Of a DNA stretch of 64,000 bases, positions 22,045-60,776 are shown piece by piece (position 1 is the first letter of the stretch; the number at the start of each line of letters is the position of its first letter). Where the stretch lies: NCBI RefSeq assembly GCF_019649055.1, contig NW_026570271.1:372001-436000 (forward strand). Direction: 5' to 3'. The stretch is from Paramacrobiotus metropolitanus. Lineage: Eukaryota > Tardigrada > Eutardigrada > Parachela > Macrobiotidae. The position numbers were made by a program, and so were the translations under genes. The notes below the pieces were generated by a model, which saw nothing but the letters and a program-made list of their open reading frames with translations, searched no databases and was not told the origin of the DNA.

Positions 22045-22198
22045 AGATTTGCACTAACTCGATTTATCGATGATAGTAACTGTTAATATCGGGGACGCCG
22101 CATCCGGGAGCGAAGTATATTAGCTATGCGCCCCTATTACCGAATGGGCTATTCATATCACGTTGCAAAAATTACATCCCATTCCTCTTGCCCACGAA

Positions 22199-22204
22199 TT
22201 TATT
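22199..22204 (-). terminator. Poly(A) signal AATAAA of U1
   Basis: AATAAA on the minus strand about 50 bases after the U1 stop, inside the conserved block CACGAATTTATTGT that is also found after U2. Confidence 0.6.
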
Positions 22205-22249
22205 GTATTTAACTTCAAACAGCAACAATATGAAATGAATGCTACAATT

Positions 22250-23734
22250 TTAAAACGGAATGCCGTTCATCTCCTCTAGATCGTCTCTGATCGGACAATT
22301 CAATTTGACCCGTAACAGCTCAGCCTCTGCAGCCGAGAGCTTCATTACGCCCACTGCCGGCTTTGTCATTTCATGGGAAAAACAACCGCTCTTTATTGGT
22401 GCCTTCGAAAGTATTTCTGTTTCAATAATCTTTTTCAGCCACTGCCGGAAACCGCCTTCGTCTTCGTAATCTGATGTTTCTGGGTTACACGACATTAATA
22501 AATCCAGAGCGAAGGCGCAGGAATATACAGCGCAGTTATTGGAACTGCTGGCTTGTTTTGGGACGGATGGTATGATTATGCTGACATCCTCGCTTTCTCC
22601 GCAAAGCGTCCATATCTGGAGCAATATCCACGGACTGGGCTTTAATCCCAGCGAATCGTACAGCGTGACAGCACGAGTATGTGGATCGATCCTCGCCGTA
22701 ACGAAGTGGTCTCTCATGTCAAACAGCGGTTGAATAATCGTTTTCCCATTTGCATAGTCGGCCCTTATGGTTTTCATAACCTCGTAGCCGGGTTGGCATC
22801 TTTGTACCCATAATGGGCTGAGAAAGCCAGTGAATGGTTTCGACGCTGTAATACTTCTTCGGGCCAACGCACAAAAAGCGGCAACCACTTTCGTATCGAT
22901 GTATTCACCCAGTGTTGATACGGCGCGGATATCAGATTGGTGTATGGCAAATTTTCCCGCCACGTATTTTACCAAGCGATTCCTTCCGCCCGTTTCCTTG
23001 TGATTCTCATCACAGCTTTTTTGCCTTTTCCCAGAAACATGGTGTAGTTCTTCGTCGGGCAAACTGTCAATGGTTATAACCGGGGGGCTCGTGAGACGTC
23101 GTTTGCTCGTGTTCATATACAGCTTTGTAGGTGGGGCATCGGGTGCTTCCGGTTTTTCCGAGTTTTGGGTTGCGTAAAATCCTAAATCACTCTCCGGGGC
23201 ATCGCGAACCAATTCGAATGGTGGCAAACTTCTCTCTGGTCTTTTGCCGCTTCCAATCTCTTTTGGTTCGACGTTCGCTGGCAAAAGCGTGGGCGTATCA
23301 TTGTCGTTTTTCGGTGGATCTGTCTGGCATGAAACCGTCGTCATTTTCGTCACCGGAATTACGCGAAACAAAACTCCTTGATTTAGATAGTCAAACGCCC
23401 GCTGCATCTGCTGCTGAATGAACAAGTTTTTGTTGGTATTGTGTGCTGCAGTTACAGACGAAAGGTAGTTTGGCAGAATTTTAGATATTTCGTTGAACTT
23501 CGCCGGTGAAAGATACAACTTCTTTTCGATTGATTCGTCTCCCTTGTTTTCGGCTTCCTGGCTTTCCTTGCATTCGTCCATATGCCCATCTAATGCATTC
23601 AACATGAGTTCGTCATTAAGGTCAACGTGCTCGGCATCGACCGCCCTTCGAACTTCAGGCTGGCAAACCGCGTTGAACTGTGTACCGCCAGGAGCAGCAC
23701 TTGTATCAGCGTCACGTAGTGCAGCCAAAGGTGC
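22250..23734 (-). CDS. U1 exon 7: Ulp1/SENP-like (C48) protease domain
   Basis: A 494-residue open last exon, 63-100 percent like U2 depending on region. The acceptor is TTTATAG|GCA at 23734, phase 0. The N-terminal half is acidic and Ser/Pro-rich with a short basic motif (TSKRR) and VITIDSLPDEEL. The C-terminal half is a C48 peptidase: His341 in RDHFVT, Asp358 in LYDSLG, Gln392 and Cys399 in PKQASSSNNCAVYSC, counted from the ATG at 23728. This matches the H-D-Q-C order of Ulp1/SENP, with Phe where Ulp1 usually has Trp after His. Known members cleave SUMO or related modifiers; the substrate here is unknown. The exon is intact although upstream exons of U1 are frameshifted, so its expression is doubtful. 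Confidence 0.8.
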   Translation of the reverse strand, partial: APLAALRDADTSAAPGGTQFNAVCQPEVRRAVDAEHVDLNDELMLNALDGHMDECKESQEAENKGDESIEKKLYLSPAKFNEISKILPNYLSSVTAAHNTNKNLFIQQQMQRAFDYLNQGVLFRVIPVTKMTTVSCQTDPPKNDNDTPTLLPANVEPKEIGSGKRPERSLPPFELVRDAPESDLGFYATQNSEKPEAPDAPPTKLYMNTSKRRLTSPPVITIDSLPDEELHHVSGKRQKSCDENHKETGGRNRLVKYVAGKFAIHQSDIRAVSTLGEYIDTKVVAAFCALARRSITASKPFTGFLSPLWVQRCQPGYEVMKTIRADYANGKTIIQPLFDMRDHFVTARIDPHTRAVTLYDSLGLKPSPWILLQIWTLCGESEDVSIIIPSVPKQASSSNNCAVYSCAFALDLLMSCNPETSDYEDEGGFRQWLKKIIETEILSKAPIKSGCFSHEMTKPAVGVMKLSAAEAELLRVKLNCPIRDDLEEMNGIPF

Positions 23735-23949
23735 CTATAAACACGTAGCAAGATTTCTTAATAAGTTGTTAAAACACTTACAAGATAACCATAGACATTA
23801 TCAGGAAACGTACAGCTAATAATAAACTAATCGGCCGTCTTTATACAGTTTACGAGTGTATTCATGAAAGGCACCACTCGTAGTGATTGCACAGCCTGAA
23901 TAGTCCAATAAAAGTATCGTGTTATATGGTAGTGGGCTTGCTCACTTAC

Positions 23950-24371
23950 ACCAGGCAACTGGGATATCGGAGATCCGTTGTGGCTGAAATCCCTCTCACA
24001 GACATCTTGATGAGATTTGACGTCCAACGGGAAACACGCATCGATGTGCTGCACTATTGCGTCGTAGGAGCATCCGTGTTCGCAAAGTTCCAGAATGGCG
24101 GACCACAACTCCCGGTACTGACTTCCGTCCGGGTCCATGGTCATTTGCCCCGCTTGCACGACCGGGTTTGGCAGCGCGTTGAGCGAATTGATGGATGGTG
24201 TAATAGGCGGCCGGCTGGACGTTTCACGCTGTTTGTTTTCTGGAGTACCGCAACGTGCCTCGCTCGGAGGTGAGAGCGGTCGTACGGTATCCGCTATATT
24301 CTCCAACATGGGGAGGTTGGGTGCAACACCGTCATATTCCTCGCTAACTGATCCCTCATAAAGATCGCTTT
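23950..24371 (-). CDS. U1 exon 6: linker with HTH-like unit
   Basis: The acceptor CATACTAG|AA at 24371 is phase 1 and the donor CCTGGT|GTAAGT at 23950 is phase 0; both match U2. About 140 open residues are rich in Pro, Ser and Glu and contain ITPSINSLNALPNP and an HTH-like stretch, ELWSAILELCEHGCSYDAIV. Open throughout. Confidence 0.6.
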
Positions 24372-24501
24372 CTAGTATGAGAACAGGCAAACAAATCAAC
24401 GCACATGGTGCAGTAAAACTTGATATTTTACCGTAACCCGCATTCGCTATGTGTACGAGTTATTTTTCAACTTGAATACAAAGCTCTACAAGCACACATA
24501 C

Positions 24502-24566
24502 CGTTCTGGCTATCCGTATTGTCTAGTTCTTCAATCGCATGAGTTTTCGACTCTTCTTCAGCTTCT
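24502..24566 (-). CDS. U1 exon 5 (65 bp)
   Basis: The acceptor TGTCACAG|A and donor AACG|GTATGT give 65 bp, exactly as in U2, with conserved ELDNTDSQNG. The phase goes from 2 to 1. Confidence 0.6.
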
Positions 24567-24691
24567 CTGTGACAAACCAACGAAGTGAACTTAAATGGCT
24601 TTTTTGGCTAATATTTAAAAAATGTTTTGATATGTAACAGTGGCAGCACGTCTGCGGTTGCGTCTTTGTTTAGCGCTGGTTTTTAACGAAC

Positions 24692-24898
24692 CTGGCTGGT
24701 TGAGACGGGGAATTGTTGGATGTTTCTGGACGATGACTTCGTGTACCGGGCGTAAGGATACTCCGCAAACGCTTCATCGTGAGACCGGTTGCCTTTGCCA
24801 TAGTGGATATGTCGTACTTTCCCCGGAAAAATCGTCACACGAAGTTATTTGCGGCTCGTCATGACTGCTGACCGCGGAAGAATTGTGGTCTTCCATTT
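24692..24898 (-). pseudogene. U1 exon 4, frameshifted
   Basis: The acceptor TTTCCAG|AA (24898) starts EMEDHNSSAVSSHDEP in phase 1. Near 24815-24825 it is one base shorter than U2 (GATTTTTCCGGGG against GATTTCTTGGGCGG), which leads to a stop at 24774. In the other frame the conserved DIS.MAKA.GL.MKR continues to a donor CAGCCAG|GTTCGT at 24692. Confidence 0.55.
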
Positions 24899-25173
24899 CT
24901 GGAAAGTACCAAGGTGATTGAGAATCGATGAATGTCTGCTGGCAGCGTAATTTCATTCCAGCTTTAGAAGACATGAAAAGTAATAAAGATTAGGCCTTTG
25001 CAAGAGCTCTAGAGTGCGTGAGACAGGTCGTGAGTATCATCAAAATTTTGGTGTTTATACGAAGATTTTGTCATGTGCCGTTGCCCTTGCATACATATCG
25101 TGCATTTCGCAAAAATAACTCGCTCACTGTACGGTTACTTGACAAAATAAGAGCAGCGCTTTAAAGAACATAC

Positions 25174-25266
25174 CAAACTGGTCTCTCCCGGAATTTGGGC
25201 TCATGACAGGCTCTGACTGTGAGGTGTCCTTGGGAGCGTTTCCAGCTGCTCTTTCATCGTTTTTAC
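25174..25266 (-). CDS. U1 exon 3 (93 bp)
   Basis: The acceptor TCTGCAG|GT and donor AGTTTG|GTATGT give 93 bp, phase 1 to 1, the same length as in U2. The peptide KNDERAAGNAPKDTS aligns with RIDERPAADAPKHTS. Confidence 0.6.
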
Positions 25267-25360
25267 CTGCAGATGAGTGAATGTTCGACCGTTATATCGT
25301 CGTGGGCATGCGTAGAAGTACGGTCAAAGCCGGAACAACAAAAATGTTTGCGTTTACTAC

Positions 25361-26233
25361 CTGGATCGTTACGTTGTATGGCTTTCAACCGAGATGACCT
25401 CCGACGCTCAGTATCATTGTCGTTGCCGCCAACCTCAACAACACGCGACGCCCGTTCGACCTGCTCTTCCTCGAAATTATCCGAATCAAGCCACGATTGC
25501 TCGGCCGTGTCCGCGCTGCTTAGAGAACTGTCATCCGAGTCCACGCTGCTTAAAGAATTGTCATCCGGGTCATCCGCACTGCTTAGAGAACCGTCATCCG
25601 ATGTGATCTCTTCTCGACCGGCAGTTGCCAGTATTTGTTGTAAAGCGTTCTGGCTGATAGTAAACTGTTTAGTTATATCATCCCATGACCATCCCTCTGC
25701 ATTAAATTTTACTACAACGGCTAGCGTCGGCCATCTTTTTTTTTCATCACTTGTTGGCACATATCCGACATCGTTCGGTTTCAGCGCGGTTTCCTCGGCA
25801 ATCTCACCCATACTCACCGGATCCTCATCCACGGTGGTCGCGCCTTGACCGGTATTTTGCTCTGCTCGCCTTACCGTTGTTCTTTCTGTGATCGGATTGG
25901 GCAGCGGAGTGAGCGCATTTACAGTTGGTGCGAAGTGCACACTGCTCTCAGCTACGTAGTGCGGCTGCTCTTCTGTGATGTTGCGCGTTTCGTTATTGGG
26001 CCACCGCGGGCGCTGATTATCCATTAAACTTATGGAGCGGTGGCTATTTGCACAAACGATATGTTCGTTTTCGAGGTCTACTGAGCAGCCTTCTGTGGAA
26101 GTCATATCAGGATGTGGTCCAAAGCGAGTGACCGCAGTATCCGGGCCACATTCAATAAGAGGCACCGAAGAAATGAAGCTGGTTTTCTGCCTGTTTTCTT
26201 CTTCCCGGTGTTGGGTAGTCTCCTTTCTGACAG
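25361..26233 (-). CDS. U1 exon 2: acidic Ser/Asp-rich repeats plus HTH unit
   Basis: The acceptor TCTACAG|CT at 26233 and donor GATCCAG|GTAGTA at 25361 are phase 1, and 290 residues are open. Contents: a long linker, the conserved box PNPI.....V, an HTH-like unit KRWPTLAVVVKFNAEGWSWD continuing to LQQILATAG, then acidic tandem repeats of the type DDSLSSAD (three to four copies), then a basic motif TERRRSSRLKA that could be a nuclear localisation signal. Confidence 0.6.
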
Positions 26234-27083
26234 CTGTAGACAGTAAAAATATCTCAAAAGACCAAACTAACGTGATTACATAGAATACTCTTCCCTCTAT
26301 GAAAGCAACATGCACCAAGCAACAATGTGTTCTGCTAAACGGTAAACAAATCAAACAAAATCATGCTCTACTTGGATAGAATTTTTCTAGTATAGTGCTA
26401 CTTGTACTGCTTAGCCGTTTATATTAAAAAGTTTCGTATAATATTGTAACGATCTTCAGCAAATTTCTTGTTGCTTTTCATTTACATGTACACGACTACA
26501 GCAAAATACCAGATAAATGCCAGGGATTAGTCCGAATTACTGACCACTCGAGAAGCTAGAAATGCGTCTTTGTACCATAGGCGATTTCATATAAGCAAAA
26601 AATTAGTTGCACGAGTAAGTGGCTAGTTGCACATGTTCTTGTAATGCGTCAAGCATTCTCGCAATTAGCGGTCTTGTACCATGGGAGCCAAACTACTTCC
26701 TGGTCACCCGTCTCTGTGCGGTGCGCGCTTCTATTCGTTTTGGTAATACAATGACTCCCTCCCACTGCACTTCTGTTGATGTTCGGTATATTTTAAACAA
26801 TTCAGACGCAAGGTCTTTGGTTAGCAAACTGTTCTTCTACGCAAACTTTGCCTGTTTTTTTAGAAATTATAGTGTTCAGGAGACCCGTTTAAAATGCATC
26901 CTTCACGAAAGTACTCGAAGTTTGAGGAACTCAAAGCAACCAATAAACAAATAAATCATACGCAACCTTGAAGTTACTTAGATCTGTTGCGGTTTCATAT
27001 CTTAAAATCTTCCCATCCGTCCTAATATTTTACATGCTACATAATTTATGGATTTATGGAGTGTAACTGGTTAATCAACCTAC

Positions 27084-28324
27084 CAGCTTGACCTTCCTGG
27101 AAGTTTTCGTTCTTTTCTCTTTCGATCTCACGTGCAGACAATGGAATATTAACTGTGTCCTTGTCGATGGGAAATCCGTAGAACTGCGATCGGAACAGGA
27201 AGAACCCGAATGTCTGGATATGCAGCTGGAGGGGCCGATTCCGGCTACCGTTAATCGATTTAACTTTTGGCCATTACCATCGCCTGTAGTAGCTTTTGAT
27301 CTCTGGGCGATCGGGCGTTGTTCCAGGTCATTTGGTTTAAGTCCGCAGATTTTGGCAGTTTCAGCATCTTTCGGGTCAAGTGCATCCAGGGTGGTCGGTT
27401 CTTGGTTAACACTATACTGAATAATATTTACTAATGCAGTGCCCACATTCGGCGGCTTCTTGATGATATTGCCTGAACATTCCTCTGCATGAGACTGGAA
27501 CAAATCCACTTCAGTTCCCGTAAAACTCCTTTTTCAATAATATGCGCTGCCGCTTTCGCGTTTTGTTCAGAACCATCCAAGCATCCGCGTTTAAAGTCTG
27601 TGTCATCTGATTGCGTAGTCTTTATTTGAAGCCGTCTGGGGCAGCCATATACTGTGCCGCTACCGTCTTCATCAGCTTGCGGAGCCTGAACGACCTGATC
27701 TATTTCCATATTATCCGGCTCTAGCCCGGACGACGCGCTGGCAAGCGAATGATCATTCGGCGTGATCGATTCTTGTCCGTTGTTCTTCAACATGTGGCAT
27801 ATCGTTTTTGAGCTTAATTTGAGCCGTTTCCCTATTGCTTTGTATGTCAATCCCTCTGCACGAAGTTTCAGAACATCAGCTCGATTCGACTGGTAATTTT
27901 GTCGATGGGGTGTCGTTGAAGATTTCGCACCCTGCCGCAGCAACTCTTGGAGGGTGGTTGCCGACAGGCCAAACTTCTGCTTGATGTACGATTTTTTGCA
28001 GCCTTCTTCAAAGAATTTCTTCTTTCTGTTCTTGACCAACGAGACAATTATCCCGTGCTAAAAAGCTGTATCCGGCTTGTTGAACGACAGCCGTTATAGC
28101 GTCACCTCCTACGCAAACTTCTAGCATAATCTCGGCTTTTGAGTAGCCACTTCTGGACAGTTTGACGATCGTTTTCTTTTTCTCATCAGTAACGCCAGCC
28201 ATTCGGAGCGTTTGGCTTACGGTTGACCTGCTAATTTTGAGCAGCTCCGCAATTTGTGCTGGACTGTGCTCTCCGTTGCGCGCCAGCTCTATGACCTTTC
28301 TTTTTAGCTCTTTTTTAGCGCCAT
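27084..28324 (-). pseudogene. U1 exon 1, frameshifted HTH array
   Basis: Aligned with U2 exon 1 this copy has four reading-frame breaks: one base lost just after the ATG at 28324 (the ATG frame stops at codon 7), about seven bases lost near 28013, and one base lost near 27525 and again near 27145. Between them the frames still encode four HTH units (KRKVIELARNGEHSPAQIAE..., KKTIVKLSRSGYSKAEIM..., CKKSYIKQKFGLSATTL..., RADVLKLRAEGLTYKAI...). It lacks the fifth unit of U2. The donor GCTG|GTAGGT at 27084 is kept. Confidence 0.7.
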
Positions 28325-28606
28325 GGATCGCCGGGTTAATTTCATCTCTGTGGGATAACTCTCCAGCGTATAGAAAGAGATACCGGGCGTACCACAATTT
28401 CCTCACGTGCGTAGCCAGCGATGCATATGTCACAGATCAGACATCTGATTTTTCTTCCACTCTTTCGCTGTTTTGGATTAGTAATTCCTCTTGGAGTAGT
28501 CGACCTATTAGAACAACAGCATACAGTAATTCGACAATGTCATATACTGTAGAAGCCGTCATTGCGCCGGGGAGTGTTCGTGATTAGGAATTTGGAGTAC
28601 GATGGC

Positions 28607-28614
28607 TATATAAA
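28607..28614 (-). promoter_or_regulatory. TATA-like box upstream of U1
   Basis: TATATA lies about 285 bp above the U1 start, inside a block GATTAGGAATTT...CGATTGTGGG that is conserved upstream of U2. The position is plausible for a core promoter, but no start site can be shown. Confidence 0.4.
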
Positions 28615-29125
28615 CGATTGTGGGTGCCCAGAATTAATTCCTTAATTTATAGCGGAAGTCTTCGTCCTATTAACAGCGGTACAAATTAGCCGTACAACTT
28701 TTTTTCTGAATAACCTAATCATTTTTGTTCGGTATCGGAGCTGGAAATGTACGCACTGCCATTAAAAGAGTGTGCCGCTATGTTTTAGGAGCCCGCACCA
28801 ATGTGGTAAGTTAAGCGAAGAGCTTCTGCTTGCTACAGCTAGAATGTCGTGGGTGAGAAAAATGTACGAGTATAATTTACAAGTGAGAAAATCTTAAGAA
28901 ATGAGAGTCCAGAGTCCAAATACTTGGGAATTTATTTCGGAAGACTGCACGATTGAGCTTGGCTAGGCAGGGTTGCATTTCCATATCAATTTTTCGCAAA
29001 GAATATCGTTGCAAAAGACAATACGAATCGGAACTACTACCCAAAGTTGATGAAAACGTCAGACCAATAGAAAATGAGGAATTTTTATTCCCGTCCCAGT
29101 TTGGCTGGTTCCTTGAAATGCTTAA

Positions 29126-36332: not shown

Positions 36333-36379
36333 GTGTTTAACCACGAACACCAACAACTCGACAGTGAATGTTAAAATTA

Positions 36380-37900
36380 TTAAAACGGTATACCGTTCAT
36401 CTCTTCTAGATCCTCCCTGATCGGACAGTTCAATGTGACCCGTAAAATGTCAGCCTCTGCAGCCGAGAGCTTCATTACCGCCGTTGCTGGCTCTGTCATG
36501 TCACGGGTAAACACACTGCGCTTTTTCGGTGCCCCCGAAAGCACTTCTGTTTCGATAACTTCTTTCAGCCAACGCCGTAAATTGACTTCATCTTTATAAT
36601 TCGACGTTTCCGGGTTACGTCTCATTAATAAATCCAGCGCGAAGACGCAGGAATATACAGCGCAGTTATTGGAACTGCTGGCTTGTTTTGGGACGGATGG
36701 TATGATTATGCTGACATCCTCGCTTTCTCCGCAAAGCGTCCATATCTGGAGCAATATCCACGGACTGGGCTTTAATCCCAGCGAATCGTACAGCGTGACA
36801 GCACGGGTATGTGGATCGATCCTCACAGTAACGAAGTGGTCTCTCATGTCAAACAGCGGTTGAATGATCGTTTTCTTCCCGTTTGCGTAGTCGCGCTTTA
36901 TGGTTTTCATAACCTTGTAGCCGGGTTGGCATCTTTGTACCCATAATGGGCTGAGAAAGCCAGTAAATGGTTTCGACGCTGTGATACTTCGGCGGGCCAA
37001 CGCACAAAAAGCCGCAACCACTTTCGTATCAATAAACTCACCCACTGTTGATAGGGCGCGGATATCAGATTGGTGTATGGCAAACCTGCCTGCCACGTTT
37101 TTAACCAAACGATTTCTTTCTCCTTCTTCGTCGGGACTTCCATCAGAGCTTTTTCGCCTTTTTCCAGGGACCTGCTGCAGTTCTTCGTCGGGCAAACTGT
37201 CAATGGTTATAACCGGGGGGCTCGTGAGGCGCCGTCGTTTGCTTGTGTTCAAGTACGGCTTTGTAGGAGAGGCATCGGGCGTTTCAGGTTTTTGCGAGTT
37301 TTGGGACGCGTAAAATTCTCCTGTTGTCGGATCACTCTCCTGTTGTCGGCCAACTTTGCGTCCGGCATCGCCGTGCAATTCGAATGGTGGTAAACTACTC
37401 CTTGGGCTTTTGCCACGTTTAATCTTCTTCTGTTCATCATTTCCGGGCCAAAGTCCGGGATTATCATTACCTTTTTTATGTGAGTCTGTCTGGCATGAAA
37501 CCGTCGTTGTTTCCGTCAGCGGCGTTACGCGAAACAAAACTCCTTGATCAAGATAGTCTAACGCCCGTTGCAGCTGCTGCTGAATGAACTTGTTTCGTTC
37601 GGCATTGTGTGCGGCAGCAACAGGCGAAGGGCCCTTGGGCAGAATTCGGAATAATTCATTGACTTCAGATGGTGGACGATAAAAGTTCTTTTCGACTAGT
37701 TCACCATACTTTTCTTCGGCTTCCTGGCTTTCTTTGTTATCGTCCGTATGCCCACTTAATGCATTTGACACAACTTCATGATAAAGGTCAACATGCTCTG
37801 CGCCAGCAGCATTTCGAACTTCAGGCTGGACGACTGCGTTGATCGGTGGACTGGCAGGTGTAATAAATGTATCAGTGTCACGGAGTGCCATCGAATGCTC
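36380..37900 (-). CDS. U2 exon 7: Ulp1/SENP-like (C48) protease domain
   Basis: The acceptor TTTACAG|GAG at 37900 is phase 0, and 506 residues are open to the stop at 36380. The first half is a polar linker with two basic patches (TSKRRR; PGKRRKSS) around VITIDSLPDEEL, which itself could be a short acidic interaction motif. The protease domain covers about residues 260-470 counted from the ATG at 37891: His352 (RDHFVT), Asp369 (LYDSLG), Gln403 and Cys410 (PKQASSSNNCAVYSC). Spacing and context fit C48 peptidases (Ulp1, SENP). Phe replaces the usual Trp after His, and Ala replaces the usual Gly after the catalytic Cys. The natural role is probably removal of a ubiquitin-like tag near the DNA bound by the HTH array; that role is inference. 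Confidence 0.85.
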   Translation of the reverse strand, partial: EHSMALRDTDTFITPASPPINAVVQPEVRNAAGAEHVDLYHEVVSNALSGHTDDNKESQEAEEKYGELVEKNFYRPPSEVNELFRILPKGPSPVAAAHNAERNKFIQQQLQRALDYLDQGVLFRVTPLTETTTVSCQTDSHKKGNDNPGLWPGNDEQKKIKRGKSPRSSLPPFELHGDAGRKVGRQQESDPTTGEFYASQNSQKPETPDASPTKPYLNTSKRRRLTSPPVITIDSLPDEELQQVPGKRRKSSDGSPDEEGERNRLVKNVAGRFAIHQSDIRALSTVGEFIDTKVVAAFCALARRSITASKPFTGFLSPLWVQRCQPGYKVMKTIKRDYANGKKTIIQPLFDMRDHFVTVRIDPHTRAVTLYDSLGLKPSPWILLQIWTLCGESEDVSIIIPSVPKQASSSNNCAVYSCVFALDLLMRRNPETSNYKDEVNLRRWLKEVIETEVLSGAPKKRSVFTRDMTEPATAVMKLSAAEADILRVTLNCPIREDLEEMNGIPF

Positions 37901-37939
37901 CTGTAAATTTCTTGATATTTAACGCATTAAACAAGATAC

Positions 37940-38351
37940 CCTGGTAACCCGGTACATATCACTAATATTATTCGTGCACATCTTCGGAAACTTTCGCTTT
38001 CGCGAATTTTAAAACGAATTTTACAATTTTTGAAATTTGTTTTAAGCTTGAACAGTGGACCGGCGTACGAACCATCTTCATAGTTATCTGCGTTTATGGG
38101 AAAAAACCGAAAGAGATCGGTCTATGATAAGACTTTCGGTATAACTGAATGCGCTTTTTGGAATTTTGTTACCCACATACTAGTAACTCCGCAACCGGAA
38201 GTAGCGCGCGAAAACTTATGTCATGCCTCTGTATGGAAATCACTTGTCTATAAAATGTTATAAAGTTATCAAAAAAAATGTTTGGAAGTGCGCGGAAGTT
38301 AAAGTTTTCGTGGATGTCTTCGAATTTAATACTATTTTACCTGCCACTTCC
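37940..38351. mobile_element. MITE family A copy 3, in U2 intron 6
   Basis: It starts near CCCGGTACAT and ends GCCACTTCC with TTAA following (38352-38355). The inner AACTTTCGCTTTCGCG and AGTAGCGCGCGAAA match copies 1 and 2. The matching intron of U1 (about 23770-23800) lacks it and reads straight through, so it arrived after the duplication. Confidence 0.75.
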
Positions 38352-38519
38352 TTAAATTTTTACAAAACGATGGCTGGACACTATCAGGAAATGTGCAGCT
38401 AGTAATAACAAACTAATCAGCCGTTTTATCCAGTTTATATTGCTAATTGGCACTACTACGATGGCTACAGAGCCTGACCAGTCCGGTAAAAGTATCATGG
38501 TCTAAGTTGAGGTACTTAC

Positions 38520-38917
38520 GTCAGGCAATTGGAATATCGGAGATCCTTCGAGGCTAAAACCGACATCTTGAGGTGACGTGACGTCCATCAGAAAGCAAAC
38601 ATCGATGTGCTGCATTATTGCGTCGTAGGAGCATCCCTGTTCGTAGAGTTCCTGAATGGCGGATCGCAACTCCCGGCACTGATTTTCGGCCAGCTCCGTG
38701 GCCATTTGACCCTCTTGCACGGGTGGGTTCGGTAAGGCGTTGTGCGTTTTGATGGACTGTGTAATAGACGGCCCAATGGACGTTTCCCGCTGGTTGAGTT
38801 CTGGAGTAATGCGACGCCCCTCGCTCTCAGGTGAAGGCGGTCGCAAGGAACCTGTTACACTTTCAGACGTGGGGCGGTTGGACGCAGCATGGGCATGTTC
38901 CGCTGAAAGATCGTTTT
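38520..38917 (-). CDS. U2 exon 6: linker with HTH-like unit
   Basis: The acceptor CACAACAG|AA at 38917 is phase 1 and the donor CCTGAC|GTAAGT at 38520 is phase 0. About 133 residues are open. They hold a Ser/Pro/Glu linker with ITQSIKTHNALPNP, then CRELRSAIQELYEQGCSYDA, an HTH-like helix pair like those of exon 1. The box LPNP also occurs in exon 2, just before its HTH unit, so exons 2 and 6 may be old duplicates. Confidence 0.7.
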
Positions 38918-39047
38918 CTGTTGTGAGAACAGTAAACAAATCAACATACATGATGCGATAAAACTGATATCGTACGACATTCCACATTACTTAAGTGTGC
39001 GAAAAGGTTTTTTACACTTGCACATGAAACCCTACGAACATACATAC

Positions 39048-39112
39048 CATTTTGGCTATCCGTGTTGTCTAATTCTGCAGTTTCATGAGATTCCGACTCG
39101 TCTTCAGCAGCA
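39048..39112 (-). CDS. U2 exon 5 (65 bp)
   Basis: The acceptor TGTCGTAG|T and donor AATG|GTATGT give 65 bp, phase 2 to 1, the same length as in U1. It encodes AAEDESESHETAELDNTDSQ, strongly acidic. Confidence 0.65.
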
Positions 39113-39228
39113 CTACGACAAACCAACGAACGTGAATTCAACGGATTTGGTTGATTTTGGTTAAAAAATTTTTGTGATATGCAACACGACTGCGGGTGCG
39201 TCTCTGGTAGCGTTGATGTTTAACGCAC

Positions 39229-39446
39229 CTGGCTGAGTGTGACGTAGAAGTATTGCATGTTTCAGGAGGATGACTTTGTGGACCGGAGTCACCGGACGTA
39301 AGGATGTTCCGCCCACGCTTCATCTCGAGACCGGCTGCCTTGGCCATATTGGATATGTCGTATTTTCCGCCCAAGAAATCATTGCAGGAATTCACTTGCG
39401 GCACGTCATGACGGCTGACCGCGGCAGAATTGTGGTCTTCGGTTGC
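39229..39446 (-). CDS. U2 exon 4, one-base frame conflict
   Basis: The acceptor GTTCAG|CA aligns with U1 and the donor CAGCCAG|GTGCGT is phase 2. Length arithmetic is off by one: a run GCGGGTC near 39420 has one G more than U1. The conserved part is in the frame DISNMAKAAGLEMKRGRNIL, possibly a degenerate HTH. The cause may be a real frameshift, a sequencing error in the GGG run, or a different acceptor. Confidence 0.5.
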
Positions 39447-39691
39447 TGAACAGCAACCAGATGATTGAGAATAAGTTGGTGTTTTTTTTTCAGCGTAATT
39501 ACAGTTCTACTTTAGAAGACATTAATATTATAAAGAATAGGCATTTTGCAAGAGATCTACAGTGCGAGATTATCATTTGGTGTTATATTACATCGTGTGC
39601 CGCTGGATTTGCGTACATACCGTGCATTTTTGCAGTAAAAAACTCGCTCGCTGTACTGAGATAAACAACAGCAACACATTTAAGAACGTAC

Positions 39692-39784
39692 CAAACTGGT
39701 CACTCCCGCAATTTGGGTCAAGGACAGCATCTGACTCCGAGGTGTGCTTGGGAGCGTCTGCAGCTGGTCTTTCATCGATGCGAC
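39692..39784 (-). CDS. U2 exon 3 (93 bp)
   Basis: The acceptor TCCGCAG|GT and donor AGTTTG|GTACGT are phase 1 to 1, with the same length and position as in U1. It encodes a polar linker, RIDERPAADAPKHTSESDA. Confidence 0.65.
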
Positions 39785-39879
39785 CTGCGGATAAATTAAT
39801 ATTCACTGTGGTTAACTCGTTGTGGGCTGGCGTTAGGAACAATCAAAAGCGGAACAGCAGAATTGTCAGCGTTTACGAC

Positions 39880-40713
39880 CTGAATCAGTGCGTTGCAGGG
39901 CCTTCAACCGAGACGACCTACGACGTTCAGTAACGCTAGCGCCATCCTTATCAGCCCGCGACGCCTGTTTATCCTCGAACCTATCCGAATCCAGCCACGA
40001 TTGGTAGTCCGCGTCCGCGCTGCTTAGAGAACTATCATCGGTGTCCGCGCTGCTTAGAGAACCGTTATCCGATGTGATCTCTTCCTGACCGGCATTTAGC
40101 AGTATTTGTTGGAAAGCGTTCTGGTTTATATTAAACTGTTCTGTTATATCATCCCAGGACCATCCCTCTGCATGAAGTTTTACTACAACAGCTAGCGTCG
40201 GCCATCTTTTGTTCTCAACCATTGTTGCCTTATCTTCCACATCGTCCGGTTCCAACGTGGGTTCCTCGGCAATCTCACCGGTGCTCACCGGATCCTCATC
40301 CGGAGTGGTCGCTTCTTGACAGGCAAGTTGCTCGATTTGACTTACCGTTGGGCTCCCCATGATCGGATTGGGCAGTAGAGCCGGTGTATTAATGGTTGGT
40401 GCACTATGCGTACCGCGGTCAGGTTCGTAATGTTCCTGCTCTTCTGTGATGTTGATAGTGCGCGTTTCAGTAGTGGGCGACCGCGGCCGTTGACTATCGC
40501 CTAAACTTACGGAGCTGCGGTCATGTACAGAACCGGTACGTTGCTCGCTTGCGGGATCGATTGAGCTGCCCCCCGTGGAAGCCGTGCCAAGACGAGGTCC
40601 AAAGAGAAGTACTACTGTATCCGGGTCACACGCACGAAGAGGGACCAAGAAAACAACGTCGGTTTTCAGCGATTTTTCATCATCCCGCTGTACAGCAGTC
40701 TCCTGATCGGCAA
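39880..40713 (-). CDS. U2 exon 2: HTH unit, acidic repeats, basic motif
   Basis: The acceptor ATCATAG|TT at 40713 is phase 1 and 278 residues are open. In order: a polar linker, a box LLPNPIMGSPTV, an acidic stretch, the HTH-like unit KRWPTLAVVVKLHAEGWSWD continuing to QQILLNAG, the motif EEITSDNGSLSSAD followed by a second DDSSLSSAD repeat, and TERRRSSRLKA. The donor GATTCAG|GTCGTA is weak, but it matches GTAGTA in U1 and gives the right phase. U1 carries one more acidic repeat. Confidence 0.65.
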
Positions 40714-42457
40714 CTATGATATGGAGACAAAAAATTCATAAAAGACTCAACTAGCTTATTACAGTATATAAACTTGATTCTCACTTTGAAGGCGTTATTG
40801 AACATACAAGTTCACAATGTGTTCTGCTAACTGGTGGACAAATCAAACATCATCATCTGCTACTATTGACTAAGGAAACGCAGTTGTGTAACGGGTACGA
40901 TCCCCGATCAGGATAGCATAGAGGAAGTGTTTCTTTTGTAAACGCTGTTTTGTTCTGGTGCATAGTTTGTACTCGTACCATGATACTTATTAAAGCTTCC
41001 TATCGGGTTGAAATCATGATTGCATGCATTTCGTATTTCGTTTCATTTCACAATCATGCGCACCCTGTCGTGAAACGTGAAAAGGAAGTGAAATGAACCA
41101 TGAAATGAAAGAAATTGTGAAATCACATGAAATACAAGAACATGATTGGAAATAACGTGATTCAAAAGATTCAGTGTAAAAAACTACAAAACGTGACGCA
41201 GACTTCAGTGCTTTTGGTTTGTAAGTGATTGCATCCATCGCTGTTACTACGAGTAAGCAGGTTATTATAGTAAGCAGGTTTAACTTTTTCTGATCATTCT
41301 AACCACAGGACATCCGCAGATGGCAACACAAGAAGCGCCACTGGAAGTAGATACAGGCTTGAACAAAGGCCGGAATAGTAGTAATTTTTGGAACTGCATC
41401 TCTAACCCAATCAAGGCACAATCTCTACAGATACAAAAAAACCCAAAAAGGATCAGGTTTTTACTTTTAATTGCCGGTTTTTGCGGCTAACGGTTGACCG
41501 TATTTTTATATTCTCGGACGGTTTTTTTGCGAGTGCTTGGTAACCACGTTCTGATTTTTGAAGATATTTTTGAACGAGTATTTAAGACAACAGGAAAAGT
41601 TATTGAGTATAATATTAATATTATTAAAATAATTGATTTTTTAAAATAATTTCTTATTTCACGATTCGTTTCATTTCTTTTCATTTCACATTCCATTTCC
41701 TTTCAAAACCGGTTTCGAACGTCATGAATTTCAGCCCTACTTTTGACATCATTTTGCGGGAATAGTGCTTGTTGTACTGCTTCTCCGTTGAATGTTGATA
41801 ATTAAATTCGTGTCATTGCAGCCGATTTTCAACAGATGTCTTGCTGCTCTACCGGCTACATGTACAATATCAATAAATACAAGGAACTATTCCAAATTAC
41901 AGACCGCTTGAGAAGCTAGAAATCCATATTTTCAAACCATTCGATAGTTCGCAAACTTTTTGCAAAGATACACTATGTGTTAGCAAACTAAAATATTTGT
42001 ATTTTGTTCTGTTTTGTAGAAACTTTCTTTATTTTCGGAATTGCAATGTTCAACTGGCTTATTTCCCAAGTATTGTGAATGGCACTTTTTCGTGCAGCTG
42101 AGTCGCATCCAATTAACATAAGAATCCTATATATTAAAGCAGAACCGTGATTCTGTGACGCTGCTGCCTCCAAAACCTTCTGATTGGCCAAAAAAACCTT
42201 ACGTTTCTGATTGGCCGGAACCCGCCTAGCAACTTTTAGGCTTTTGCAGCCCCTTAACCCTGTGCTTTTACGCCTTTGTCCTTACTGAGTATCCGAAACT
42301 TATTTCTATTACCTGTGAAAACCTTCGCCTGATAAACCGGATCCCACCCTTATCTATCTTTACTCCTTACTAAGCTTCAAAACCATAGTTCTTAACAAAC
42401 CTGATAACTTTAATTACTTTAACAAACCTTGCGGTCCCACCTTTTAAGCGTTTAGTA

Positions 42458-42817
42458 ACCGAAAGCCCCCCGTGCTTTACCTGCCTTTTTAAGCCGTTGG
42501 TGACCGAAGGTCACGCGTGCGGTACCCGCCTTTTTGAGCCGTTGGTGACCGAAGGCCACGTGTGCGGTACCCGCCTTTTTAAACCTTTGGTCACCGAAGG
42601 CCACGCGTGCGGTACCCGCCTTTTTGAGCCTTTGGTCACCGAAGGCCACGCGCGCGCTACCCGCTCTTTTAAACCTTAGGTAACCGAAGGCCACGCGTGC
42701 GGTATCCGCTCTTTTAAACCTTAGGTAACCGAAGGTTACGCATTATTTGTCCACGCTTTTAAGCGTTTTGTAACAGAAGAATTTCGGTTTAACCCGTTTT
42801 TTTTTATACAGAACTGT
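42458..42817. repeat. 45-bp minisatellite, about 8 units, in U2 intron 1
   Basis: The landmark ACCGAAGG recurs at 42458, 42503, 42548, 42593, 42638, 42683 and 42728, with a degenerate copy at 42773: exactly 45 bp each time. Units also share CACGCGTGCGGTACCCGC. The array is open on both strands for about 60-80 codons (minus repeat VAFGDQRLKKAGTAR), as expected of a period divisible by three. A stop above it and no paralogue in U1 speak against an exon. Confidence 0.85.
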
Positions 42818-43168
42818 ATTCCCTTTTCAATAAGACTTATTTAGCATATAAAACCGTTTCACTTCCATTCGTTTAGCAAAAAGAGCCCAGCCGACAAGAA
42901 CCGCATTTGCACTGCAGCGCGGCGCGTAAGCGCCGCGCGCTGTGCTTGTAAATACTATAACTGACTGTACGAAAAAGTGCCAAGTTGCCTGGACAATACA
43001 GTACTTAATGAAGTACAGTACTGGAAGTTCGAAAAATTCGAAGTAGCCATTAAATAAGTAAATCATACGCAACCTGGAAATTACTTAGAGCAGTTCGGTA
43101 AATAAATTAGAACAGTTTGTAAATTACTCCATTTTAAAAACCTTCCTGTATGCCGAAATACTCACGTT

Positions 43169-43268
43169 CTCTACCATTTAGCGAATAACAAAACTCTCTC
43201 TCTCTCTCGGAATTTAGTGGATACCATTTAGTGAATAACAAACAAGTTTAGTGAATAACAAAACAAAG
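43169..43268. repeat. TTTAGTGAATAACAAA repeats with a CT run
   Basis: About four copies of TTTAGTGAATAACAAA surround a short (CT)n run near 43192-43207, just downstream of the U2 exon 1 donor. Confidence 0.7.
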
Positions 43269-43287
43269 CAACTCTCAGTTCACGTAC

Positions 43288-44749
43288 CAGCCTGACCTTT
43301 AAGGGAATTCGCGTTCAAGATTCCTCTGTCGATCTCAAGGTCCTCACGTGCGGAAAACGGAATATTAGCTGTGCCGTCGCCGGTGTTGAAATCCGAAAAC
43401 CTTTTTGGGGAACCAGAAGCACCCGAATGTCTCGATTCGCATCCGGACGAGCCGTGTTCGGGTGCCATTAACAAATCTAACTGTCGGCCATGACCGTCGC
43501 CTTCCTTTGCTTGTAATCCTTGAATAGTCGGACTTTTTTTTAGGCCATTGGGCTTAACTCCACAGACTTTGACAGTTTCAGCATTGTTCGGGTCAAGCAC
43601 AGCCAGGGGGATTGGTTCTTGGTCAGCACCATTTTGCAGAACATTGACGAATGCAGTGACAATTTTCGGCGGCTTTGTGGTGATATTGGCTGAATATCCC
43701 TCAACATGAGACTTGAGAAAATTCACTTTCGTCCCCGTCAAAGCCCAATTTTCGATAATACAGGCACATACATCAACATTCGCTGCGGCTTTTTCGTTAA
43801 GGTCGGAACCATCCAAGCATCGGCGTTTACAGGCTGGATCATCGGGCTGCGTAGTTTTTATTTGAGACCCTCTGGGGCAGCCATATACTGTGCCGCTTCC
43901 ATCTTCGTCGGCCTGCGGAGGCTGAAGGACCTGATCTCTTTCCGTATTATCCGGCTCCAGCCCGGAGGACGCGCTGGCCAGCAAATGATCATCCGGCGTG
44001 ATCAATTCTTCACCGTTATTTTTCAACATGCGGCTTATCGTGGCTAAGCTTATTTTGAGCCGTTTCCGTATTGCCCTATATGCCAATCCCTCTGCCCGAA
44101 GTTTCACAACTTTAGCTCGATTCTCCTCGTAATTTTGTCGATGGCGCCTGGAAGACGATTTTCCATCATCATCCGGCGTGATCGACTCTTGTCCGTTATT
44201 TTTCAACATTTGGATTAGCGTGTCTGTGCTGATATTGAGCCGTTTCCCTATGGCCTTCCATGTTAGTCCTTCTGCACGAAGTTTCCGAATATTAGTTCGA
44301 TTCTGCTGGTAATTCTGTGGAGAGCGTTTCGAAAAGGATTTCCCATTCTGTCGCAACAACAATTCGAGGGCGGTTGCCGACAGGCCAAACTTCTGCTTGA
44401 TGTACGATTTATTGTGGCCCGCTTCAAAGCACTGAAGTATTTCTTCTTTCTGTTCTTGACTACCGAAACAATTATCTCGTGCTGAAAAACTTTCTCCAGC
44501 ATATTGAAGGACAGCGATCACAGCGTCACCTTCTACGCTAACTCCGCGCATAATCTCCGCTTTCGAATAGCCGCTTCTGAACATTTGGATGATCGTTTTC
44601 TTTTGCACTTCAGTAACGCCGGCCATTCGCAGCGTTTGAAAAACGGTGGCATGGCTAATCTTGAGTTGCTCCGCAATTTGTGCTTTGCTATGCTTTCCGT
44701 TACATGCCAGCTCTATTATCTTTGTTTTCACTTCTTTTTTCAGCACCAT
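43288..44749 (-). CDS. U2 exon 1: five-unit HTH array
   Basis: I start at the ATG at 44749, because U1 keeps an ATG at the same aligned place; the frame stays open for some way above it. 487 residues follow to a phase-1 donor GCTG|GTACGT at 43288. Five HTH-like units: 7-44 (IIELACNGKHSKAQIAEQLK...), 49-85, 100-136, 150-186 and 210-246 (VVKLRAEGLAYRAIRKRLKI...). Each has about 37 residues and a final NG/AG. Units 4 and 5 are near copies with a 60-residue period, including the tail ESITPDD. A polar, Pro/Gly-containing tail follows. The whole seven-exon gene would encode about 1,530 residues. The likely role is a nuclear DNA-binding protein with a C-terminal protease; no known protein of this architecture comes to mind. 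Confidence 0.75.
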
Positions 44750-53162: not shown

Positions 53163-53566
53163 TCAATCAGTGGACACTTGAAATACAATGCATTTTACAG
53201 TTCTGCAGCGTACTTTCCGATTGGTATTTAACAATATGTTTGCCCATCGTAGCTGGTTTGCGGGTCCTAAAAGGCATCCTGTACAATACAGGAATGTTCT
53301 AATGGCAAAAAGCTGTTCATGTTCTTTGTTTGTCAAATGTAACAAAAATGCTTCCTCTTCGTCCCAGGACAAGTGGCAGATCTGGCACTGGAATCTTTGG
53401 CTAAGATCGCTCGTGCTCGCGCTGTCCGGCTGCAGCAGCGATAATTCTGGAGCAGTTTCCATGCATCTGTTTGCTGTAATGCTGGGCCATCCCAGAGGTT
53501 GCACCGGAGCAATGTTCATATCGACGCCAACGTCCACAATATCCGCTCTTGCACGATCTTTCAGCA
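53163..53566 (-). CDS. Z4 exon 2: zinc-finger C-terminus, finger 2 frameshifted
   Basis: The acceptor CATTTTAG|TG at 53566 is phase 1. The frame gives finger 1 (CQIC-x12-H-x5-H, WDEEEAFLLHLTNKEHEQL) and the start of finger 2 (CTGC). Against Z2 one base is missing right after CTGC, near 53280: the family sequence KFRTRKPATMG continues in the next frame, while the actual frame ends with unrelated residues at 53163. Finger 1 is intact and finger 2 is lost, unless this is a sequencing error. The intron is only 251 bp. Confidence 0.7.
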
Positions 53567-53817
53567 CTAAAATGACCAAATTCTGGGGAGTTTGTTGCTG
53601 AACGTGGACGATTTGTGCATACTACTTATTTAACGCAAATTCTTTATCACGAGTTGTGACACCGGAACAATACGAAACGGTTTGATAAAGGTTAGTACAG
53701 CGTAACATAACAGTAAATACTTGACTCAAAGGCTATCCGGTTATATATTCGCCATTGGCAAACCCTGGTACACTGCACACGAAATTACCAAAAAAACGCA
53801 AATGTCTTTGGACATAC

Positions 53818-55087
53818 CATTCGGGTCGTAAGCGTTATCGCCCTCTTTCGGGCAAAACATTGCATCCTCTTCGATGGGGAATAACTCGCTGCACTGCCGG
53901 TCATTTAGCAAAATGCCGGTACTACCGCAAACTTCGCTTCCGGGGCTTGGTGTACACCAGTTTTCTGCGGCTGGATCATGGTGTCCGTTGCCAGTCATTG
54001 TACATGGATCAATCAGCTTTTCTGGGCTAAGTAAATCCCGCAGTCGAGCATCACGCTCCGTAATCGCAGCGGCTTCATTATGGTCTGCGAACTGTAAGGG
54101 GAAGGTTGCCACAGTGTCGCCGGCAGCGAACGACCGGGGTCGGAGTTCTGGAGTCAGACCGTCTTCCTTTAAAAGCTTTTCCAGCCAAAACATGTTCGTT
54201 GTTGCGTTGTTTGCCGAGTTGGGCGGGTGCGCTTCTTCTGCGGCTGGATTCGGCGGTCGTCTAGTAAATGAAGTTATTTCTTCTGGGCAACCCGAAATTC
54301 CTAGCATCTCCTGCAGCTTCGTAATGGAGACGGCTTCATTCTTTTTCTGCTTTATGGATGGCAACGAAGAGGTTATCACAGGAACGTCAGCCGTAACTGA
54401 CTGTCCGGGTTGTGTTTTTGGAATTAAGCCAGCACTACTTAAAATCCTGTCCACTAACGCGATGTTAGTTTTGGCGTGCTCGCTGATTTTTTGATAAGGC
54501 CAGCCCCGCTTGAACCGCTTCAGGACAAGAGGTCGCAGTAGTTGATACCGTTTTTGATCCCCTTCTCTAATGAATCCCGTTCTTCCAGCTGCGTACAACA
54601 CCTGCTTGAATTGGTAGGGGAACAGACAGAACCTCTTCATTATGTCAGAGCGGTTAAGACCTTTGTCAAATAAATCAACGATTTCCTTTCTTATTTCCGG
54701 GGCAATATCGTACACGTCGCGCACACTACTGTTTCTTGGTATTTTTTCGAAAACACCCTGCGTTTTTAGGATGCTCGATGTCGAGCACGACTGACCGAAC
54801 GAACGAGGAGTGGCTTCGGAGTGATGCTCAGCAACCATTGATGAGCGGGTATATTTGTTGTTTATTCCAATGTCTCGTTGTGGCATCGCATTTGGTTGGC
54901 TTACTGCTCGGTGGTGTTGCACCATGTTGCCTTGAACTGTGTTGGCATTCGGAATGGAGCATGGAGGTTTGTTCTGGAGCAGCATCGCCCTCAGAAGTGG
55001 CATTTCCGGAAATCTGCTTTGGATATTTAAGGGAGGCTCGCGTACAGGGAAATAAACGTCCCACTCGGTAGATTGCACATTGGACAT
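53818..55087 (-). CDS. Z4 exon 1: two-unit HTH protein with long tail
   Basis: The ATG at 55087 follows an in-frame TAA 18 bases above. 423 residues lead to the phase-1 donor AATG|GTATGT at 53818. The N-terminal 120 residues are polar, with the family linker SCSTSS. HTH units lie at 133-169 (EIVDLFDKGLNRSDIMKRF...AAGRTG) and 181-220 (LLRPLVLKRFKRGWPYQKI...SSAG). Z1 and Z2 have an extra unit before these. Further on, NMFWLEKLLKEDGLTPELRP repeats the second half of a unit (compare MFWVGKIIRDAGLMPR in Z1). Total with exon 2 is about 557 residues. Confidence 0.75.
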
Positions 55088-55109
55088 TATTTCGGTCTTC
55101 CGTTACTTA

Positions 55110-58107: not shown

Positions 58108-58547
58108 TTAATGGGTAATTTTAACGGAATGCATGCTACCGTCGCGCAGCTCCCATTGTGATTGGTAATCAATAATGTGTCTACCCATTTTTACTGGTTT
58201 TCTGGTTTTAAATTTACATCCTGTACAGTATAAGAAAACCCCGGAGGCGAACAACTGTTCGTGCTCTTTTTGGGTAAAATGCAACAAGAACGCTTCCTCT
58301 TTGTCCCAGGATAACCGGCAAATCTGGCAATGATATCTTGCACTGCGGCCGCTTCTGGACAGAATTTCGGATGGACGCCCAAAAATTTCCGAAGCGGTTT
58401 CCACGGATTTGTCAGGCGAAATACAGCCTGTACTGCTATATTCAATAATTTCTTCCTTGATTTTTCTTCGGACGGAAGAAGTTCGGAATGCAGTGTCTTT
58501 TTCGATGTCGACTTCCAGAATATCCGTTTTCGTTATATTTTCCGGTC
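58108..58547 (-). CDS. Z5 zinc-finger exon, HTH exon not in view
   Basis: The acceptor GATTTAG|GA at 58547 is phase 1 and 145 residues are open. Both fingers are intact: CQIC-x12-H-x5-H with KEHEQL, and CTGC-x12-H with KTRKPVKMGRH. The linker DILEVDIEKDTA matches the family. No HTH exon lies between here and the DIRS-like element that starts about 1 kb upstream. The HTH exon may lie past the right edge of the window, with the retrotransposon in the intron, or may be lost. Confidence 0.65.
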
Positions 58548-58559
58548 CTAAATCAAAAT

Positions 58560-59591
58560 ATTCAGCTATATTTTAATTGCGCAAGTCCATTTGCGTCAAG
58601 AAACAAATCTTTATCACGTTTGCGCCTGTAAAACCCATGTGCCTGTCTTACGCTACGTGCCTGTAGAACGCTGCGCAGCTAGTGTCCCAGGATACGCAAA
58701 AGTTCTCTAGTAACCACTCCTTCTGTCAAAATTTAATTCACATACCTAATTCATTGGTTCGATGCGGTACGTGGTGTTTTTTTGCAGCATCACCGTATAG
58801 TGCAGCATGCGTAAATATTCATAATACTTAGATGCTTCGCGCTTATTCGGATTTTCAGTTAAGAAACACATACTTGTTTCGTACTTAAATTATTACAACA
58901 ATCACTATTATTTATACATTAAAACTGAGGCTTATCCAATTTTGAAATTATCGTCTAATCGGCAGTAAACTAAACTTCTAAGATTACAAAAATTAAAGAC
59001 ATCATGAAACCGCCAGTGAAAGTAAGGATAAAGTCAACAAATCTCTTAACCCGTTGACGGGCATTGGCGTCAGGCGACGACAAGGTGTTTGGGATTTTTT
59101 TCCCAGCGATCGGAAACAGTTAATCGGTATCTCATAGCACAAAAAGCAAAAAGGGACTTCGAAGCAGCAGCAAAAACGTAATTGAAGCCTTTGTCTCAAG
59201 TTAATGTAAAATTAAATGTGGCATTTAATTATGGTTAATTTTCTCGAGCGGAAGTGATTCTTTTGTATTGAACTGGCACTCATTGCTTAGCAACAGTCCT
59301 GTTGTGGGTTAGCATTGATGCTACTCCGGATACGTGCATACAGATTGTTAAGTTCGAAGTCTCAGATCAGTTGCGGCTGCATCCTGAATTTATAGTTTCG
59401 GTTTGCATTGTTTTTTTAATTTACGGACAAATTTACGGACGTTCCTATTCACGTCATTGTGATTGACGATCTGTGAATAAGTTCCAGCTGTATATTCCTG
59501 CTTATACCTATATATTACACATTTACCCGGTGGATATTATCTTTCCGCTCCCTTATTATTCTCTCGTTTTGCAATTATACTATTTTTTCTG
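58560..59591. other. Spacer and possible 5' end of the DIRS-like element
   Basis: No exon seen. The part just before 59592 probably holds the left terminal region and promoter of the retrotransposon, but the boundary cannot be fixed without the right end. Confidence 0.35.
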
Positions 59592-60590: not shown

Positions 60591-60776
60591 TTTCTTAGCC
60601 TCCCCGCTGGTAGCGGGGGAGCAAAAGTGGACGAAGTGTGCCACCTCTGGAATAAAGGTCACTGCACTGCCGGGCTGTTCTGCCGATACGGTCGTCAACA
60701 CCGATGCGCCAACTGTGGTCAACGTGAAGACCGCGATTTCCAGTGCAAATTAAAAGCAAGCAACAGTGCCCAGTGA
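60591..60776 (+). pseudogene. Gag extension behind an in-frame TAG
   Basis: Open in gag frame with VCHLWNKGHCTAGLFCRYG then HRCANCGQRED: six Cys and three His in about 30 residues, a clear zinc-binding cluster. It overlaps the start of the RT frame by about 23 bases. Confidence 0.6.

Follow-up and report, generated by a model that had tools for sequence, protein, structure and literature searches.

Structure of the locus

The stretch analysed here (the window, 64,000 nucleotides) belongs to contig NW_026570271.1 of the tardigrade Paramacrobiotus metropolitanus, named C51 in our searches, and corresponds to positions 372001-436000 of that contig; the genome searched comprises 169,799,020 bases in 533 contigs. 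The region under study, window positions 36380-44749 on the minus strand, holds a predicted gene, U2, that joins an array of helix-turn-helix (HTH) units to a putative Ulp1-like protease, and the same window carries a duplicate of the whole gene, U1. The best explanation of the locus as a whole, to which we give a probability of about 0.7, is that U2, a Paramacrobiotus gene, arose by host-transposon fusion from a member of a clustered HTH-array family and part of a Mutator-like element (MULE).

Read by splice consensus, U2 has seven exons with GT-AG introns, which join without a stop codon into 1530 residues. The splice sites were picked by eye from the alignment of U1 and U2, according to the GT-AG consensus and to conservation in the duplicate, and two candidate sites were available for the exon 2 donor. 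At the six introns both the GT and the AG are present in U1 at the aligned sites. An earlier note on this DNA had described seven exons with matching phases and a Ser/Asp repeat region; the single open frame and the splice sites kept in U1 bear out the former, and the repeat is located in exon 2.

That note had also recognised five HTH units in exon 1, in agreement with the AlphaFold model, in which 15 helices form five three-helix groups, and with the Pfam match of the exon 1 frame to HTH_23. The mean predicted local distance difference test score (pLDDT) of this model is 70.9 and its predicted template modelling score (pTM) 0.34, so that the individual units are credible and their mutual arrangement is not. 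Units 4 and 5 repeat each other in tandem (180 bp, 43988-44318), and exon 1 of U1 is shorter by 180 nt, that is by one HTH unit, in frame. The further units proposed in exons 2 and 6 fare less well: weak matches are present (HTH_23, E 0.0029, and HTH_38, E 0.011), but both are under the Pfam cut-offs. Exon 4 was rejected as a Pfam HTH, no family being found at E <= 10. A Foldseek search with the model of the array gave no match at E <= 0.001; Tc3, Mos1 and Pax domains are among the non-significant ones.

Intron 1 of U2 contains a 45-bp minisatellite (window 42430-42735); related DNA occurs at locus L012 on C298, next to a fragment of a MULE protease.

Table 1. Predicted features of U2 and U1 (window positions).
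Feature	Position	Strand	Basis or remark
U2 exon 1, with start codon and array of five HTH units	43288-44749	-	open frame; donor GT also in U1; Pfam HTH_23 1.9e-17
HTH unit 1	44627-44737	-	AlphaFold helices 5-16, 22-29, 33-41
HTH unit 2	44501-44611	-	AlphaFold helices 47-58, 63-70, 74-83
HTH unit 3	44348-44458	-	AlphaFold helices 98-109, 114-121, 125-134
HTH unit 4	44201-44320	-	AlphaFold helices 144-159, 164-171, 175-183
HTH unit 5	44018-44158	-	AlphaFold helices 198-219, 224-231, 235-244
U2 exon 2, one HTH-like unit (~40210-40088) and Ser/Asp repeat (~40063-39986)	39877-40713	-	HTH_23 below cut-off
U2 exon 3	39692-39784	-	splice sites (GT-AG) and frame kept, without indels relative to U1; NG86 omega 2.45 on 30 codons
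U2 exon 4, HTH-like stretch by eye	39229-39445	-	matches same-order exon of cluster gene L013
U2 exon 5	39048-39112	-	frame and splice sites as in U1; L013 match, E 0.015
U2 exon 6, exon of the cluster family with one HTH-like unit and phase-0 GTAAGT donor	38520-38917	-	L013 match, E 4.3e-17; HTH_38 below cut-off
U2 exon 7, chimeric by comparison, ends in stop codon	36380-37900	-	frame; L003 match; cluster-gene exon-start profiles
Putative host-derived start of exon 7, ~33 codons	37803-37900	-	cluster-gene exon-start profiles score U1 and U2
MULE-derived remainder of exon 7, MULE stop codon included	36378-37802	-	blastn to L003
Ulp1-like (clan CE) protease domain	36509-37108	-	H 36838-36836, D 36787-36785, Q 36685-36683, C 36664-36662
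160-nt tract identical in U2 and U1	36646-36805; 22516-22675	-	surrounding DNA ~80% identical; spans Asp-to-Cys segment
U1, duplicate of the whole U2 gene	22102-28701	-	HTH exon frameshifted; protease exon open 22250-23734

Transposon source of exon 7

Apart from its start, exon 7 is 62% identical to locus L003, one of the MULE copies of the genome; by blastn the similarity is 68.6% (E 1.3e-154) and reaches the stop codon and two bases beyond it. The protease domain used as query finds at least 98 matches on at least 66 contigs, part of them with internal stop codons, and a broken copy with six stops (L009) lies on the same contig as U2; the match lists of the protease (98) and of the HTH array (80, see below) are lower bounds. 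In L003 and L007 a SWIM-like motif is present upstream in the same frame, with Pfam SWIM below its cut-off, and L006 joins the protease directly to an RNase H domain of MULE type, which is over the cut-off (ZSWIM1-3, 1.7e-20). The most complete element among those inspected, L016 (C50, ~501-4524), is a nearly intact MULE: its RNase H and MULE domains are over the Pfam cut-off, ZSWIM3_N and SWIM are below it, and these parts together with the protease take up two exons; the protease is 43% identical to that of U2 and has lost the Asp position. It is bounded by inverted repeats of 157 nt that are 83% complementary, and its ends carry a 9-nt AT-only direct repeat, the same being found in 20 of 1000 shuffles of those ends.

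For eight of the 98 listed protease rows, which represent 7 loci, a MULE RNase H match is found at most 3 kb upstream on the same strand, where 0.033 would be expected; this count was first made on 69 of the rows and then repeated on all 98. From these comparisons exon 7 is almost certainly of MULE origin. Among the same 98 rows only U1 and U2 have an HTH array upstream on their own strand at a distance of up to 12 kb, so that the fusion probably arose once and was then duplicated. A MULE transposase in the window was also considered and rejected: the part of the L007 protein ahead of the protease matches only the U1 linker (E 6e-14), all the rest having E >= 0.25.

The HTH-array gene cluster

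The HTH array used as query finds at least 80 matches in the genome, and among those listed 45 lie on C51 (11.7-558 kb) and 9 on C97. The cluster on C51 encloses the window, genes of the family are also present on C161, and several of them end in a Cys/His finger. Exon 6 of U2 has 31 matches in the genome, U2 itself and U1 counted. In three cluster genes, L013, L014 and L015, exon 1 is followed by an exon-6-like exon and then by a Cys/His zinc-finger exon; L014 and L015 were matched for exons 1 and 6, and L013 has homologues of exons 4 and 5 too, in order, its same-order exon being 50% identical to exon 4 of U2 over 48 aa (E 1.4e-10). U2 qualifies as a cluster gene by its exon 1 array and by these ordered homologues of exons 4, 5 and 6 in L013. 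The genes differ at their end, which is a protease in U2 and U1 and a zinc-finger exon in the three cluster genes examined; none of the 63 zinc-finger matches in the genome falls inside U1 or U2. The arrangement of clustered HTH-array and finger genes is reminiscent of KRAB zinc-finger clusters, and a search of open-licence papers found no description of a tardigrade HTH-array family of this kind.

It could be argued that U2 is a transposon gene throughout, its HTH array too, and merely resembles a host gene, as transposase and resolvase families are among the Pfam HTH matches and Tc3, Mos1 and Pax among the non-significant Foldseek ones. The genomic distribution makes this very improbable: the listed arrays are concentrated on C51 and C97, the listed proteases are spread over 66 contigs, and among these the two meet only in U1 and U2.

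Other adjoining HTH and finger frames, all on the minus strand and paired by position alone, lie in the window at 8286-9314 with 7195-7638, at 16150-17229 with 14457-14948, at 53741-55102 with 53163-53621, and, as a single frame, at 58108-58572. The window also contains a retroelement on the plus strand (59481-63682), with a reverse transcriptase frame (RVT_1, 8.5e-10) and a zinc-knuckle frame below the cut-off, and an inverted repeat pair with near-identical translations on opposite strands (11745-12071, plus; 13711-14025, minus).

The fusion point inside exon 7

In several cluster genes the exon that follows exon 6 opens with a recognisable stretch of ~35 residues, and two profiles of this exon start were compared with exon 7. 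The first, built from 5 of 12 scanned cluster loci chosen by a pattern inspired by U2 and hence biased towards U2, gives 20.0 bits for U1 and 22.6 for U2 on the first 45-50 residues, and none of 1000 shuffles scores as high. The second, built from 5 of 14 loci chosen by a downstream motif of the cluster genes without use of U1 or U2, gives 21.0 and 12.7 bits on the exon 7 start, with none of 2000 shuffles as high. Since the remainder of the exon matches L003, these scores place the fusion point inside exon 7, which by comparison is composed of a host-derived start and a transposon-derived remainder. The donor after exon 6 is the phase-0 GTAAGT found in 5 of the 14 cluster loci searched.

A fusion point inside exon 7 supports a joined reading frame without proving a transcript, and we consider it probable that the HTH array and the protease share one frame. 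The claim of the earlier note that one gene joins the two is supported by this comparison within the genome; the MULE origin of the protease and the zinc-finger ends of the related genes had been missed there.

The protease domain

A profile-profile comparison (hhalign) of the exon 7 domain with five genomic proteases gives 96.3% and E 1.5e-9, the residues H, D, Q and C being in register; the five come from places in the genome where Pfam C48 is over its cut-off, and four of them have a MULE RNase H match at most 9 kb upstream. In an alignment of 18 relatives the columns H94, V96, L128, Q145 and C152 are invariant, three of which we take to be, by the roles known from Ulp1, the catalytic His, the oxyanion Gln and the catalytic Cys. 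Both U1 and U2 have His, Asp, Gln and Cys in the canonical order. Profile comparison and invariant residues together support the presence of a divergent Ulp1-like protease in exon 7. A C48 domain with H352, D369, Q403 and C410 (counted from the Met of MALRD) had been proposed before; the residues do align with those of yeast Ulp1 (1euv), the only Protein Data Bank (PDB) match obtained with the single sequence (E 0.15, non-significant), but the Pfam C48 score is below the cut-off.

Several results weigh against this assignment. Pfam C48 gives 17.3 bits (E 0.0043; cut-off 20.7) for the U2 domain alone and 14.7 bits (E 0.028) for the whole open reading frame (ORF), nothing for the U1 ORF at E <= 1, and no match is reported for L016. 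Profile searches of the PDB yield weak Ulp1-like matches with 9 rows (E 0.1) and, with 18 rows, a best match to the Ulp1-like SUMO protease 6dg4 that is again non-significant (E 0.022). AlphaFold run with the two window copies leaves the protease unfolded (pLDDT 37.7), too poor for a fold search, and the catalytic Asp is replaced in many rows of the MULE family.

This loss of Asp in related MULE proteases, and the N-C-A that stands around the Cys instead of D-C-G, would also fit a fusion protein in which the protease domain, catalytically inactive, works as a module that binds a ubiquitin-like protein, a view compatible with the proposed origin of the gene. We think it unlikely, given that all four residues are kept in U1 and U2 and that His, Gln and Cys do not vary across the 18 relatives; catalytic activity of the protease is slightly favoured.

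The duplicate U1 and selection

U1 and U2 are 67-81% identical in aligned blocks, and their synonymous divergence (dS) is ~0.35. Indels between them are multiples of three in 12 of 13 cases in exons 2-7, versus 10 of 44 in introns, and 8 of the 9 in exons 2-6 keep the frame. Exon 7 of U1 is open for 494 codons. The ratio of nonsynonymous to synonymous substitution (omega) was computed for U1 versus U2 by NG86, with 200 bootstraps, and by YN00. For the protease the NG86 value is 0.30 (bootstrap 0.17-0.53), and no bootstrap reaches 1; the exon 7 linker has 0.51 (0.36-0.70). The YN00 values are higher (protease 0.39, exon 7 0.58, all 0.74). Purifying selection on the protease is well supported by these estimates.

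Upstream of the protease the signal of selection is weak. Four of the seven gaps in exon 1 of U1 are frameshifting, so the frame is kept there no more often than chance predicts and the HTH array of U1 is broken; exon 4 has one further frameshift; assembly errors seem unlikely as the cause, 8- and 19-nt gaps looking improbable as errors. The NG86 omega is 0.60 (0.46-0.83) for exon 1 and 0.69 (0.52-0.85) for exons 2-6, including 0.72 (0.52-1.05) for exon 2 alone, where 9 of 200 bootstraps reach 1, and the high value of exon 3 (Table 1); YN00 gives 0.73 for exon 1, 0.93 for exon 2, 1.31 for exon 6 and 0.97 for exons 2-6. Purifying selection on exon 1 before its damage in U1 is moderately supported; in exons 2-6 the substitutions do not demonstrate it, and the evidence there is the in-frame indels. 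Because the HTH exon of U1 is frameshifted and its protease exon open, selection may act on the protease alone, which would have been kept without the HTH array. In addition, the exon 7 acceptor of U2 has a tract of 42% pyrimidines, under the 50% filter used in the scan for cluster exons.

These observations could be accounted for if exon 7 were a domesticated MULE fragment with its own promoter near intron 6, giving a free Ulp1-like protease, while the HTH exons belonged to another, unrelated or dying transcript: the open protease frame beside four frameshifting indels in the HTH exon of U1, the far greater constraint on the protease than on exons 1-6 and the weak acceptor would all be expected. 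This is nevertheless improbable in our view, since U2 has an open frame through exons 1-6 with matching phases, indels in exons 2-6 mostly keep the frame, the exon 6 donor is of the cluster type and the first ~33 codons of exon 7 are homologous to HTH-cluster genes. The damage to exons 1 and 4 of U1, the high omega across exons 1-6 and the broken protease copy L009 could also suggest that U1 and U2 are functionless, decaying by-products of transposon insertion and duplication; a frame open over 1530 codons in U2, the excess of frame-keeping indels in exons 2-7 and the low omega of the protease make decay a poor explanation, and we rate it as quite improbable.

Under the fusion hypothesis the capture probably predates the MULE copies now in the genome, because dS between U2 and L003-L005 is saturated and not computable, while these copies differ among themselves by 0.09-0.14. 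The 160-nt tract that is identical in U1 and U2 is a probable case of gene conversion; nucleotide constraint is ruled out as its cause, the MULE copies differing by ~29% across it.

Proposed origin and function of U2

We propose that a member of the clustered HTH-array family took in, in frame and inside an exon, the C-terminal coding part of a MULE, namely all that follows the SWIM finger: the linker, the Ulp1-like cysteine protease and the stop codon. The captured part would replace the terminal zinc-finger exon of the other cluster genes. One mRNA would join the seven exons. Through its HTH array the protein would dock on DNA, or else on a partner, and its His-Asp-Cys protease would strip a SUMO- or ubiquitin-like tag from chromatin proteins at the docking sites, or clip these proteins. 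The HTH array most likely serves the product as a tether, from which it would act on tagged proteins in the vicinity. That the tether binds proteins, as suggested for the HTH of the Caenorhabditis F-box A2 family, is a real alternative. Action on a SUMO-like modifier at DNA sites is only a tentative suggestion, as is the reading of the product in the earlier note as a DNA-anchored deSUMOylase-like protein. It is still more speculative that the host, through an HTH-array member equipped with a transposon protease, has SUMO- or ubiquitin-like tags taken off at genomic sites of its choice, which may be the transposons themselves.

While Ulp1-bearing Mutator elements are already known, the proposed chimeric origin of exon 7 is new. 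U2 would represent a host DNA-binding gene that gained the protease of a DNA transposon, with the junction visible within one exon, the converse of a host gene acquiring its DNA-binding domain from a transposon. It also suggests a use for the Ulp1-like domains of some Mutator elements, whose role is unproven, and U2 together with U1, whose HTH exon is broken, offers a natural comparison for the value of tethering a ubiquitin-like protease to DNA.

Comparison with known systems

A search of open-licence papers, mostly at the level of listings, found no fusion of an HTH array with a Ulp1 domain, and the strings 'tardigrad' and 'fusion' are absent from the main text of a paper on transposon-derived transcription factors of animals (PMC10027918). 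In the parts available of the relevant papers, Ulp1 domains are reported in Mutator elements of plants, hydra and lancelet, and a role in transposition is suggested (PMC2836005, PMC6117577, PMC13317346); those of plant MULEs are called unlikely to act on SUMO (PMC6117577). The KI/Kaonashi elements and other MULEs of plants and the Mutator elements of hydra and lancelet resemble the presumed source of U2, as Mutator-type elements with a C48-like domain. Unlike them, U2 keeps only the part after SWIM, fused to a host HTH-array gene. The source-type MULE L016 is linked to ZSWIM1 and ZSWIM3 by its ZSWIM1-3 RNase H, over the cut-off, and by ZSWIM3_N, below it; none of these parts is kept in U2. With the deSUMOylases of the SENP/Ulp1 group U2 shares the His-Asp-Gln-Cys order, and it differs from them by low identity, by NCA for DCG and by a Phe after the His; any SUMO specificity of U2 is putative.

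Among host-transposon fusions, SETMAR, KRABINER and CSB-PGBD3 are, in the sections available of the source, like U2 in that a new gene was formed from transposon coding sequence and host exons (PMC12062965). The tendency reported there for host-transposase fusions combines a transposon DNA-binding domain with a host domain, whereas U2 would combine a host DNA-binding array with a transposon protease. The same sections describe the Caenorhabditis F-box A2 genes, which like U2 belong to a multicopy family and join an HTH to the ubiquitin system, with the HTH under purifying selection (PMC12062965). Their HTH, unlike the array of U2, is single and transposon-derived, and it is suggested to be a protein binder and not a transcription regulator, which counsels caution in calling the U2 product DNA-anchored (PMC12062965).

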